From Cercospora beticola (lineage: Eukaryota; Ascomycota; Dothideomycetes; Mycosphaerellales; Mycosphaerellaceae), in assembly GCF_033473495.1 (NCBI RefSeq), contig NC_088935.1:2976001-3040000 (forward strand): 64,000 bases of DNA. Direction: 5' to 3'. The translations under genes and the position numbers were made by a program. Positions 30,668 to 34,388 of the stretch are shown here, piece after piece. The notes beneath the pieces are model-generated. The model saw only the letters and a list, made by a program, of their open reading frames with translations, was not told the origin of the DNA and did no database searches. Every line of letters starts with the position of its first letter. The stretch's first letter is position 1.

Positions 30668-33140
30668 ATGGAGTCTGTCGAGAAGTATGCCGAGAAGGTG
30701 CCATGCGAAGACGTTTCGCAAATGCACCTCCAAGCCTGTTTCGATGAGCCTAACGATGTGGGAGAGGCCATTCATATTCCCAGCGACGAGGAAGTCATCG
30801 ACCCGCGTCTCAAAGACTATCCCGTGACTATGGTCGCCAGGACAGTCCACCTTCACAATGACCCAACGCAAGTATTGTCTCGCATCCTACGCCCGCGCAG
30901 CCGAATTCTGACTCTCATCGTAGAGAGCCCATTTTGACCTTCCGCTTCTGGTTCCTCAGCACCTTCTGGGTGACCGTTGGCTGCGCTCTCTCCACCCTTT
31001 ACTACTTCAAGCCGTACCAGCAGAGCATTTCGAGTTATGTCATCCAGCTTCTCGCCTGGGCTATGGGTGATGCTATGGCGAGATACCTGCCGAAACGAGA
31101 GATTTCTTGGTTCAGAGGCAGATTCAAATGGAGCATGAATCCTGGCCCGTGGAATGCAAAGGAACACGCCTTGGTCGTGGTCGCTTACTGGGGCTCAAGT
31201 CACACTGCCTATGGTCTGGGTCCGCTGACCGCCATGGAAATGTACTATGGCCAGAAAATTTCTGCAGTATGGGGCATCCTCTTCCTCGTCACATCGCAAC
31301 TGCTCGGTTATGGGTTTGCTGGGCTCTTTCGCGACATTCTCGTCCGTCCTCCGAAGATGTTCTATCCTAGTGTGCTGCCTAATATTGCCCTGTTCAATGC
31401 AATGCACCGCGACCCTTCTGTCACGAGGAGGTCCTTGGCCTGTTTCACCTACTGCGCCACTGCAGCCTTCATCTGGCAATGGTTTCCCCAATATCTGTTT
31501 CCGCTGCTGATATCTCTGCCACTATTGTGTTGGCTTGGACATGGCAATCCCATTGCGTATGTCCTCGGCTCCGGAAAGTACGGCTTTGGTATCCTTAACT
31601 TCTCGCTGGACTGGAACTACATCAACGGGACGATGCAGTCCATGTATACACCCTTTTGGGCGTCAATGAATCAGTTCACCGGCATTTTTGTCGCTGTTTG
31701 GGTCATCTATCCGATTCTCTATTACAGCAACTCTCTGGATGCCCAGAACTATGCGGCCATGTCTGCCTCGACGTTCGACCGCGACGGTAAAGATTATAAC
31801 ATCTCGAGGGTTCTCACACCACAGTACATGCTCAACCAGACGGCAATGGACGAATACTCACCTCCCTACTGGAGCGTATCGTATGTTTTCTGCATTTTCT
31901 CGGGCATCGCTGCCAGCATGAGCGCCTGCACTTTCGTGCTACTATGGTATGGGAAAGACACATGGGCGATCGTTCGCAAGGGGTTTCGCAAGAAAGTCAA
32001 GTCTGACGGCGATTATGATGATCCTTATCTGAAGCTCATGGCCGGCAGTCCTCGCGTACCGCATTGGTGGTACTTGACACTTCTTGGTCTCTGTGCTTCA
32101 TTTTCCATCGCGACAGTCGAGGCCGGTGGCTTTAACCTTCCCTGGTGGGGCTTCATCATCATGTCGATGTTAGCGTTCGCGTTTATGTTCCCGTGCGGCG
32201 TCATATTTGCCATTTCGGGGCAAATCATTGGCATGAATTTCCTCTCGGAAATCATTGCCGGCTCACTCTTCAAAGGAAATCCCATCGCGGTACTGGCGGC
32301 CATGACTTACGGCACTCAAAGCCTGGTTCAGAGCCTGAACCTCGTGATCGACTTCAAATTCGGCTTTTACATGCGCATTCCTGAAACTGAAATGTTCATT
32401 GGCCAGTTCTGGGGAACTCTCCTAGGCCCGTTCATCAATTACGCTGTGATGAGAGTCATTCTGCAATCTGTTGGGATCCCCACGCTCACAGGGAAAACGC
32501 CATCCGTGAATTGGGACGCCTCACGAACTCGCAACTTCTACTCCTCATCCGTGATCTGGGGTGTCCTAGGCCCTGAGCAGTTTTTCTCGGAGGGGTCCAT
32601 GTACTCTTGGGTCTACTACGCATTCCTTACAGGTCCCGCGGCCGTCCTGATCGTCTGGTTATTCCAGCGGCGGTTTCCAAAATGGGACATGGAAAAGCTC
32701 TGCAACCCGCCTTTGATTTTCTACGGGATAAGTCTGTTTCCTATCTACCCAACGACCAGTATTCTGACGTCCTTTATTGCTGCGGTAGTATTGTGAGTCT
32801 GTAAATTCCTGACGCATCCCGCGTTCGCTGACGAGTGTGATCCAGCATGGGATACATTTATCGCTATCATCCTGCCTTCTGGCGGAAATACCATTATTTA
32901 TTGGCAGTCGGCTTGGATTGCGGCACACAGGTTATGTCCACAGTCATGGCCTTCGCGATAAGCATTCCGAATGTCAAGTTTCCAACGTGGTGGGGTAACA
33001 ATCCTACATTTCCAGACCGGTATCGTCGTCGTATGCTCTCCACTTCGATATATAAGACTGAGTGCGAGCAGGTGTTTCCCTCCGAATCAAAAGCTACCCC
33101 CAGCCATGCAAATAACGACCCATTCGAAACGCTAAGGTGA
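30668..33140 (+). CDS. OPT-family oligopeptide transporter
   Basis: Exons 30668..30867, 30924..32792 and 32846..33140 give 787 aa. N-terminal acidic cytosolic segment, then about 14-16 transmembrane helices. OPT hallmarks: NDPTEPILTFRFWFLSTF (the start of the first helix, created by splicing), NPGPWNAKEHALVVV, KYGFGILNFSLDWNYI and SGQIIGMNFLSEIIAGSLFKGNPIA. The family imports tetra- to hexapeptides or related compounds with protons. Intron 1 (56 nt) has a GC donor (AAC/GCAAGT); the nearby GT would break the frame. It lies about 780 bp upstream of a secreted peptide-precursor gene on the same strand, so a functional link is possible but speculative. Confidence 0.9.
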
Positions 33141-33920
33141 GGTGGAACGGAATCGTTACCGGGGGAAATCAGTCGCGGAGCATTGGGGAATTGGGCCTCA
33201 CTAATACACGCCGGGTTGGTTTCCAATACGGCATTGGTGTCCTTCACCGTGAAACAAGACTTGCTCAGCTTCACATACCTCATGCGACCAGCAACACCAC
33301 CTGACTCGCCTTTCTGTTCCGACTCGTGGTGCATCTCGATCTGGACAGTTCGAGTCTCGCCAAACAGACCGGAAATGTATGGTCGGTACGAACAGAGTCA
33401 CTCAGTCTCTGCACTGTTCCTTTGTCCGTCAGCAAGGCAACTCACTCTCGCTGCACAAAACCGGACCTAGCGCCACGGCACGGCTGATTCGACAAGAGAG
33501 CGGGAGTCCATGTTGTAGCATAGCAAAGTACCGGCCTTGGCCATGCAAAGCCGTAGAACGACAGTAACCCAAAGTAACGACTAGCAGATATTCAGCAGCC
33601 CAATCTCTCCCCTTCCCCTTCATCACAGTCGAGTCTAGAAGAGGCGGTGTCGTTAAGGCATATCTTGGCAGAGACCGTAACCCACACCCGCACCCGCATC
33701 CGCGCCCGCGGAGTCCGCCCAATGTGCCGTGCAATGAAGAATGGCCGGAGAGACAGCAAATGTTACTATTACGAGAGCTTCAAGTACCATTGACAATGGG
33801 AACGCGATGGGATACATATAAGGAATACGACTGCAACATTCAAGCCACTCAAATCAAGCCAATTCGCCTGCAGACAACCTGGAACACACCACTTCATAAG
33901 CTTCTTTTCTGCGCCTAGAC
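33141..33920. other. Intergenic, promoter of peptide precursor gene
   Basis: No gene seen. A CACCCG/CATCCG-type short repeat lies at about 33681-33712. A TATA-like acatataagg (33814-33823) lies about 100 bp before the ATG at 33921, with C/A-rich DNA between. Confidence 0.5.
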
Positions 33921-34388
33921 ATGAAATGTGAGCTCTTCCTTGGTTTCAGTCACTAACGATATGCTCACATTCGCTTGTCAGACTCAATCATCTGTGCGAT
34001 CACCACAATATTTGGTGCCGCATCTGCTGCCCCGATATTCGAATGGGATCCAAACAGCATTGCTTACACAGGAGGATGGAAAAGAGCAGCGATTGCTGAA
34101 GCTCAACGATTCCCGCGTATAGGCGGTGGCATAACCTGCATGGCAATTTCATGCACTCACCCGGAGTTGTACAGGCCGTTCAACGGCAAGCTTGGTCAGA
34201 GGTCAGCCGATGCGAAGCCGATTTTCGAATGGGACCCCAACAGCATTGTTTATACTGGGCCGGAGAAGCGTGACGCACAGCAATTATCGCCAAATGTACG
34301 CCTTGATGGCGACGATGTCATCGCTTGGGGCATCAGGATGCCTAACCGGAAGTTCACCCTTGATCGACCTGGTTTCGGGCCGGTATGA
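33921..34388 (+). CDS. Secreted precursor with two Lys-Arg-terminated peptide repeats
   Basis: Exons 33921..33927 and 33982..34388 (54-nt intron after only seven coding bases, CACTAAC branch) give 137 aa. Splicing creates a clean signal peptide, MKYSIICAITTIFGAASA, cleaved before APIF. Directly after it stands PIFEWDPNSIAYTGGWKR. After a spacer containing two Cys (TCMAISC) comes PIFEWDPNSIVYTGPEKR. Both copies end in KR, the Kex2 recognition dipeptide, as in fungal kexin-processed peptides, pheromones and dikaritin-type RiPP precursors. The tail ends RPGFGPV. A TATA box, the intron and selection on the repeats argue for a real gene. No known core peptide or UstYa gene was recognised nearby. 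Function unknown. Confidence 0.8.
34032..34085 (+). repeat. Peptide repeat copy 1 (ends KR)
   Basis: Eighteen codons encoding PIFEWDPNSIAYTGGWKR immediately after the predicted signal peptidase site. It matches copy 2 at 15 of 18 residues. Confidence 0.85.
34218..34271 (+). repeat. Peptide repeat copy 2 (ends KR)
   Basis: Eighteen codons encoding PIFEWDPNSIVYTGPEKR. Against copy 1, eight codons differ synonymously (Ile2, Asp6, Pro7, Tyr12, Thr13, Gly14, Lys17, Arg18), while only the Ala/Val codon and the two residues before KR change the protein. Confidence 0.85.

Follow-up and report, generated by a model that had tools for sequence, protein, structure and literature searches.

Gene model and surroundings

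The window, the whole 64,000-nucleotide stretch analysed here, corresponds to C1:2976001-3040000 of a 36.07-Mb genome in 10 contigs, which its introns, STE2, and UstYa genes indicate to be fungal. A short gene on its forward strand begins with an ATG at 33921, is interrupted by an intron at 33928-33981, and ends with a stop codon at 34386-34388. Its spliced product is 137 amino acids (aa) long; the ATG, intron, and stop codon recovered are those from which a spliced 137-aa protein had been proposed in the initial annotation. The features of the locus are as follows (window positions).

33815..33823, + strand: TATA-like word CATATAAGG, 106 bases 5' of the ATG
33921..33927, + strand: exon 1, ATGAAAT (MK and the first base of codon 3); the C4 and C3 precursors share this exon structure
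33928..33981, + strand: intron 1, 54 nt, with 5' GTGAGC, a CTAAC branch-like word, and 3' CAG
33982..34388, + strand: exon 2, including the stop codon
33984..34031, + strand: portion of the putative signal peptide encoded by exon 2 (residues 4-19), from hydropathy
34035..34079, + strand: core 1, IFEWDPNSIAYTGGW, predicted 15-mer, preceded by the dipeptide AP and followed by KR
34080..34085, + strand: KR after core 1, Kex2 site predicted from sequence
34086..34103, + strand: in-phase dipeptides AA-IA-EA after KR
34197..34202, + strand: QR ahead of copy 2, a putative monobasic site of cleavage (see the comparison with P0001 and P0002)
34203..34220, + strand: in-phase dipeptides SA-DA-KP up to core 2
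34221..34265, + strand: core 2, IFEWDPNSIVYTGPE, predicted 15-mer
34266..34271, + strand: KR after core 2, Kex2 site predicted from sequence
34272..34349, + strand: tail DAQQLSPNVRLDGDDVIAWGIRMPNR, which may be a second product or a third core that has decayed

Support for intron 1 comes from homology: the paralogue on contig C4 and a larger precursor on contig C3 (both described below) each have a putative intron at the corresponding position and in the same phase, again following ATGAA[A/G]T. The leader of the window protein is hydrophobic, with a best 10-residue mean hydropathy of 2.33 and an A-x-A motif, and signal cleavage is putatively placed at ASA|AP. Signal peptidase disfavours Pro at +1. 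Upstream, the 9-mer CATATAAGG is found again 133 bases before the ATG of the C4 paralogue. It is one of three same-strand 9-mers common to the two genes within 800 bases, and because two others are shared as well, its sharing may be due to chance.

The window protein had no match among Pfam and PDB sequences, and no Pfam family scored above its cutoff for the C4 and C3 proteins. A domain scan covering 23 of the 204 open frames of at least 100 codons in the window identified two short-chain dehydrogenases and an AMP-binding enzyme downstream of the gene. Around the C4 gene, one of five scanned frames matched PigN and one matched MAPEG. No domain was common to these five frames and the 23 window frames, and thus no conserved cluster is evident around the two genes from the frames scanned. 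A frame for an OPT-family oligopeptide transporter (30862-32793, same strand) ends about 1.1 kb upstream of the window gene.

Repeats in the window protein

The protein contains two 18-residue units, PIFEWDPNSIAYTGGWKR and PIFEWDPNSIVYTGPEKR, which conform to PIFEWDPNSIxYTGxxKR, the first starting at residue 20 and the second at residue 82, an offset of 62 codons. Their 18 codons differ by eight silent and three replacement changes (A/V, G/P, and W/E), and all of these counts, given previously in the initial annotation, were reproduced. When the mature protein was compared with itself over 18 aa, the best match was 15/18; the best among 300 shuffled sequences was 7. Neither core contains cysteine, a two-cysteine motif, or the PYGxPxG pheromone motif.

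The tail DAQQLSPNVRLDGDDVIAWGIRMPNR that follows the second KR is identical at 26/26 residues in two public relatives, P0001 and P0002, which makes it better conserved than the spacer and a possible second product. Its resemblance to the core is weak and was equalled in 74 of 2,000 shuffles, so that a third core in the tail is suggestive only.

A four-copy paralogue and public relatives

A protein search revealed a paralogue on the minus strand of contig C4 (modelled exons 1414493-1414487, 1414417-1414281, and 1414215-1413874), encoding 161 aa. As in the window gene, the first intron splits codon 3 after its first base. The protein carries four cores, IFEWDPDSIAFTGWEKR, IFEWDTESIASTGWEKR, IFEWDPDSIAFTGFEKR, and IFEWDPDSIAFTGFEKA, with KR before copies 2 to 4 and after copies 1 to 3; the last copy ends in EKA, without KR. 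Spacers align poorly between the two paralogues, whereas cores and KR are retained. One spacer peptide, NF[IF]TRFIRKHLGSVMGGE[KE] (C4:1414000-1413950 region, and also in the public protein P0003), has an in-phase X-Ala/X-Pro run on one side and KR on the other; it is basic where the cores are acidic, and it could be a separate product. About 52 kb separate the paralogue as a whole (C4:1413874-1414493) from the single Kex2-type P-domain match of the genome, a proximity that is probably coincidental.

Genome-wide, the DNA pattern TTYGARTGGGAYCC occurred at seven sites: two in the window gene, three in the C4 gene, and two elsewhere. At the FEWDP-coding sites C3:1794472 and C5:128245, the roughly 300 bases to each side contained no KR repeat, and none was seen at C5:2451302 (E value of 0.2) or C2:3740581 (E value of 0.13).

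Sequence searches of 5.8 billion public proteins recovered five with the core (P0001 to P0005). P0001 and P0002 are of the window-gene type and both start inside that gene. The other three are of the paralogue type: P0003 is full length (161 aa), and P0004 and P0005 continue into sequence that forms intron 2 of the C4 gene. A single open frame spans both intron positions in P0003 and does not in P0004 and P0005; if the source of P0003 calls genes without splicing, we infer that it is the product of a spliced transcript. A further sequence, P0006 (E value of 1.1, 234 aa), has IFEWD in a different repeat setting and was taken as a chance match.

Conservation of the repeat frame and KR in homologues had been proposed as a check on the precursor reading. 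Both were kept in the partial sequences P0001 and P0002, each of which covers one repeat, and P0004 and P0005, likewise partial, each cover one core with its KR. P0003 passes the check for the most part, with four cores of which three end in KR, but the last ends in EKA.

Constraint on the cores

Pairwise comparison of C4 cores 1, 3, and 4 over 13 codons (Nei-Gojobori counts) showed silent changes only, numbering 9, 10, and 7. The window pair differs over those codons by six silent changes and one replacement. Copy 2 of the C4 gene is more diverged, with three replacements relative to each other C4 copy, and the window and C4 cores are separated by two to five replacements and 3 to 10 silent changes. 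The core is held fixed while silent sites have strongly diverged. The initial annotation had read the gene as a kexin-processed precursor and had inferred selection on a released peptide; both proposals are strengthened by the four-copy paralogue, in which three of the four cores differ from one another by silent changes only.

In comparisons with the public relatives, the window protein differs from P0002 at 6 of 21 spacer residues (two being gaps) and at 1 of 23 in the block of ladder, core, and KR; in the tail after this block 0 of 26 residues differ, and in the final stretch 4 of 12. The corresponding numbers of differences from P0001 were one in the spacer, one in the block, and none in the tail or the end. 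Constraint on the core, together with its presence at two loci, suggests a secreted signalling or host-directed peptide.

Predicted processing

After the seven KR sites of the two proteins (two in the window protein and five in the paralogue), Ala or Pro occupies 15 of 21 even places (positions 2, 4, and 6) and 2 of 21 odd places (positions 1, 3, and 5). The corresponding Fisher P value of 9e-5 is a guide only, because places within one ladder are not independent; Ala and Pro together make up 19% of the two proteins beyond residue 19. Ladders that reach the core are KR|NA-EA-KP|IFEWD and KR|DA-AP|IFEWD in the paralogue, KR|EA-DA-KP|IFEWD in P0003, and QR|SA-DA-KP|IFEWD in the window protein. 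For copy 1, the context is ASA|AP|IFEWD in the window protein and ALA|AP|IFEWD in the paralogue, where signal cleavage would fall at ALA|AP.

The XA/XP signature of Ste13 substrates is thus found after Kex2 sites across the window and C4 genes, with exceptions. The ladder of paralogue copy 2, EA-DT-KP, is interrupted at Thr, and its core is the diverged one. Paralogue copy 3 is followed by KR|ET and then LA-SA-LA-DP, where P0003 has EA-LA-AA-LA-NP, and the second KR of the window protein is followed only by DA. According to Le Marquer and colleagues (PMC6339444), XA/XP after a Kex2 site is generally dedicated to Ascomycota alpha pheromones and also occurs in some Basidiomycota precursors. The window precursor is probably trimmed by a Ste13-type enzyme as well as processed by Kex2. 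The genome contains a single P_proprotein (Kex2-type) match, at C4:1466332; of its five DPPIV_N matches, two are full length.

Copy 2 of the window protein is preceded by GQR, without a dibasic site. This QR is identical in P0001 and P0002, and the aligned place is KR in the paralogue and P0003. In the C3 precursor, NER|SADN, NAR|SADN, and SAR|DATN precede stretches of its repeats. Single-R sites may be used for cleavage in this fungus, given these C3 sites and the retention of QR|SADAKP in P0001 and P0002.

Kex1-type carboxypeptidases remove K and R only, and the two variable residues before KR are for that reason probably retained in the product. At the other end, Pro closes the in-phase X-Ala/X-Pro ladder, so that the predicted N terminus is Ile and not Pro. 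The product is likely to be a linear 15-mer, IFEWDP[N/D]SI[A/V][Y/F]TGxx; the PIFEWDPNSI[AV]YTG-like peptide proposed earlier has the same core, but its start has moved by one residue. Computed [M+H]+ values are 1755.801 (IFEWDPNSIAYTGGW), 1766.827 (IFEWDPNSIVYTGPE), 1773.801 (IFEWDPDSIAFTGFE), and 1812.812 (IFEWDPDSIAFTGWE). With Pro retained, the window pair would give 1852.854 and 1863.880, and the 13-residue trims would give 1512.701 and 1540.732.

A possible sexual pheromone role and the C3 precursor

The resemblance to ascomycete alpha-pheromone precursors (yeast MF(ALPHA)1/2 and the Ppg1 type) extends to the putative signal peptide, the KR sites, and the X-Ala/X-Pro ladder, as these precursors are described in PMC6339444. 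Their repeated peptides are of 9 to 24 residues, and the two loci with unequal copy numbers recall yeast, in which MF(ALPHA)1 and MF(ALPHA)2 carry four and two copies, respectively (PMC6339444). The Ste13-type ladder, this likeness of a four-copy and a two-copy locus to the yeast pair, and a single STE2 match in the genome would all fit a sexual alpha-pheromone role for the window and C4 genes. So would the outcome of a search for canonical pheromones: two CxxPGQxC-type patterns matched 7 and 10 sites genome-wide (C2:4256070 in both; reversed controls, 4 and 5), and none of the 17 matches, read in the matched frame, was a KR-flanked repeat.

However, the core here is unlike the pheromone motifs cited in PMC6339444, and it has no similarity to the two-cysteine or PYGxPxG types given there for Dothideomycetes. 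The copies are separated by long spacers, and copy 2 in the window follows QR. A precursor on contig C3 (C3:3247268-3246028, minus strand, 394 aa) fits the sexual role better. It has three repeats with LGIGPQI[NS] and five KR-[ED]AEA repeats with two cysteines each, approximately xxRLPGMP...C.SP.C.SLKQ. With a generic alpha-factor-like query, its segment C3:3246082-3246249 ranked third with a nonsignificant E value of 0.099 and was recognised on reading; C1:1537856 and C9:201956 scored higher but lacked such repeats. The C3 precursor may release two peptide types, three of its repeats beginning after a single R (NER|SAD, NAR|SAD, and SAR|DAT), and we regard it as the better candidate for the sexual pheromone. 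A sexual pheromone role for the window and C4 genes is, on balance, rather unlikely.

The C3 precursor resembles the window gene in its leader, first-intron position and phase, KR sites, and ladder, and differs from it in its length, its repeat sequences, and the two cysteines in each of five repeats. Its leader, MKYNIICAIVTVVIGASAAP, is identical to that of the window protein, MKYSIICAITTIFGAASAAP, at 14 of 20 positions; the C4 leader matches the latter at 11 of 20. The pattern ATGAARTGTRNGT occurred at 20 genome sites, as did its reversed control, and only at the C3 and C4 genes did the leader hydropathy in the spliced frame exceed 2 (next, 1.69); the window gene, with GAGC at that place, falls outside the pattern. 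A common origin of the leaders appears likely on the basis of a short low-complexity stretch and the intron position.

Less likely readings: cyclic peptides and uncut proteins

Another interpretation is that the genes encode cyclic RiPP precursors of the dikaritin or epichloecyclin type, with UstYa enzymes encoded elsewhere acting in trans. Epichloecyclins end in YTG. Like the precursors of epichloecyclins (gigA) and dikaritins, the proteins here would be secreted and cut by kexin at repeats, and the core also has an aromatic residue (Tyr/Phe) and Thr-Gly. The enzymes exist in the genome, which yielded 63 UstYa (DUF3328) exon matches, a number that looks unusually rich for a 36-Mb genome, although this is an impression made without comparison. 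None of the 63 falls inside the window, where the gene is about 440 kb from its nearest match, and none comes closer than 600 kb to the paralogue, whose nearest match is 676 kb away. By contrast, gigA is described in a four-gene cluster with a kexin gene and a DUF3328 gene (PMC7317419), and for DUF3328-linked Kex2-processed repeat proteins (KEPs) a mean distance of 3.09 genes to DUF3328 is given in PMC7329392. A clustered dikaritin was rejected on these positions. With no UstYa match near either gene and an XA/XP ladder that PMC6339444 assigns generally to alpha pheromones, the dikaritin comparison made in the initial annotation is weak. The ladder points to alpha-factor-type trimming, and the trans-acting version is improbable.

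A further reading, that the protein is secreted uncut and the repeat serves as a structural or binding motif, would accord with the missing dibasic site before copy 2, the presence of two copies only, and the full conservation of the tail in P0001 and P0002, but it is highly improbable, given that cores and KR are kept between paralogues with poorly aligning spacers and that an in-phase ladder would have no evident reason.

A probable precursor of alpha-factor type

We consider it likely that the window gene encodes a secreted prepro-protein precursor of alpha-factor type. Following signal cleavage, Kex2 protease would cut after KR and possibly also after the QR that precedes copy 2. X-Ala/X-Pro dipeptides would then be stripped as far as the core by a Ste13-type dipeptidyl aminopeptidase, and a Kex1-type carboxypeptidase would take off KR. 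The window products would be the linear 15-mers IFEWDPNSIAYTGGW and IFEWDPNSIVYTGPE, with near-identical peptides from the four-copy C4 paralogue.

The core sequence appears to be new; the kind, Kex2-processed precursors of alpha-factor style, is already known. KEPs of unknown role are secreted, as is predicted for the proteins here, and have near-identical KR-ended repeats; most of those described in PMC7329392 have no DUF3328 neighbours. The KEP definition specifies a signal peptide and at least three repeats of at least 8 aa between Kex2 sites (KR, KK, RK, or RR). The window gene encodes a hydrophobic leader with A-x-A and has two copies, fewer than this number, with KR after both and QR alone before copy 2; the paralogue has four, the last without a following KR. 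Two-copy precursors of this kind fall under the copy cutoff of both published surveys, as stated there, and the C4 type may already be included in their tables. The core strings were not found in the full text of open-licence PMC papers. In the survey of 7,878 Kex2-processed precursors, as reported in PMC7329392, 2,560 had no homologue and 74% were neither pheromone-like nor adjoining a DUF3328 gene. Few such precursors have a known product. For the precursors described here, the predicted peptide ends are readable from the ladder, and two loci encode nearly the same peptide.

A more tentative possibility is that the peptide is a second, non-sexual alpha-factor-style hormone. Because leader style and first-intron position are the same in the C1, C4, and C3 genes, these may represent an ancestral-leader family that split into a two-cysteine, pheromone-like member and a hormone of IFEWDP type acting through a receptor of its own. 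The system bears on whether ascomycetes use alpha-factor-style peptides outside mating, and if the second-hormone reading is true, one processing line would serve two peptide languages.
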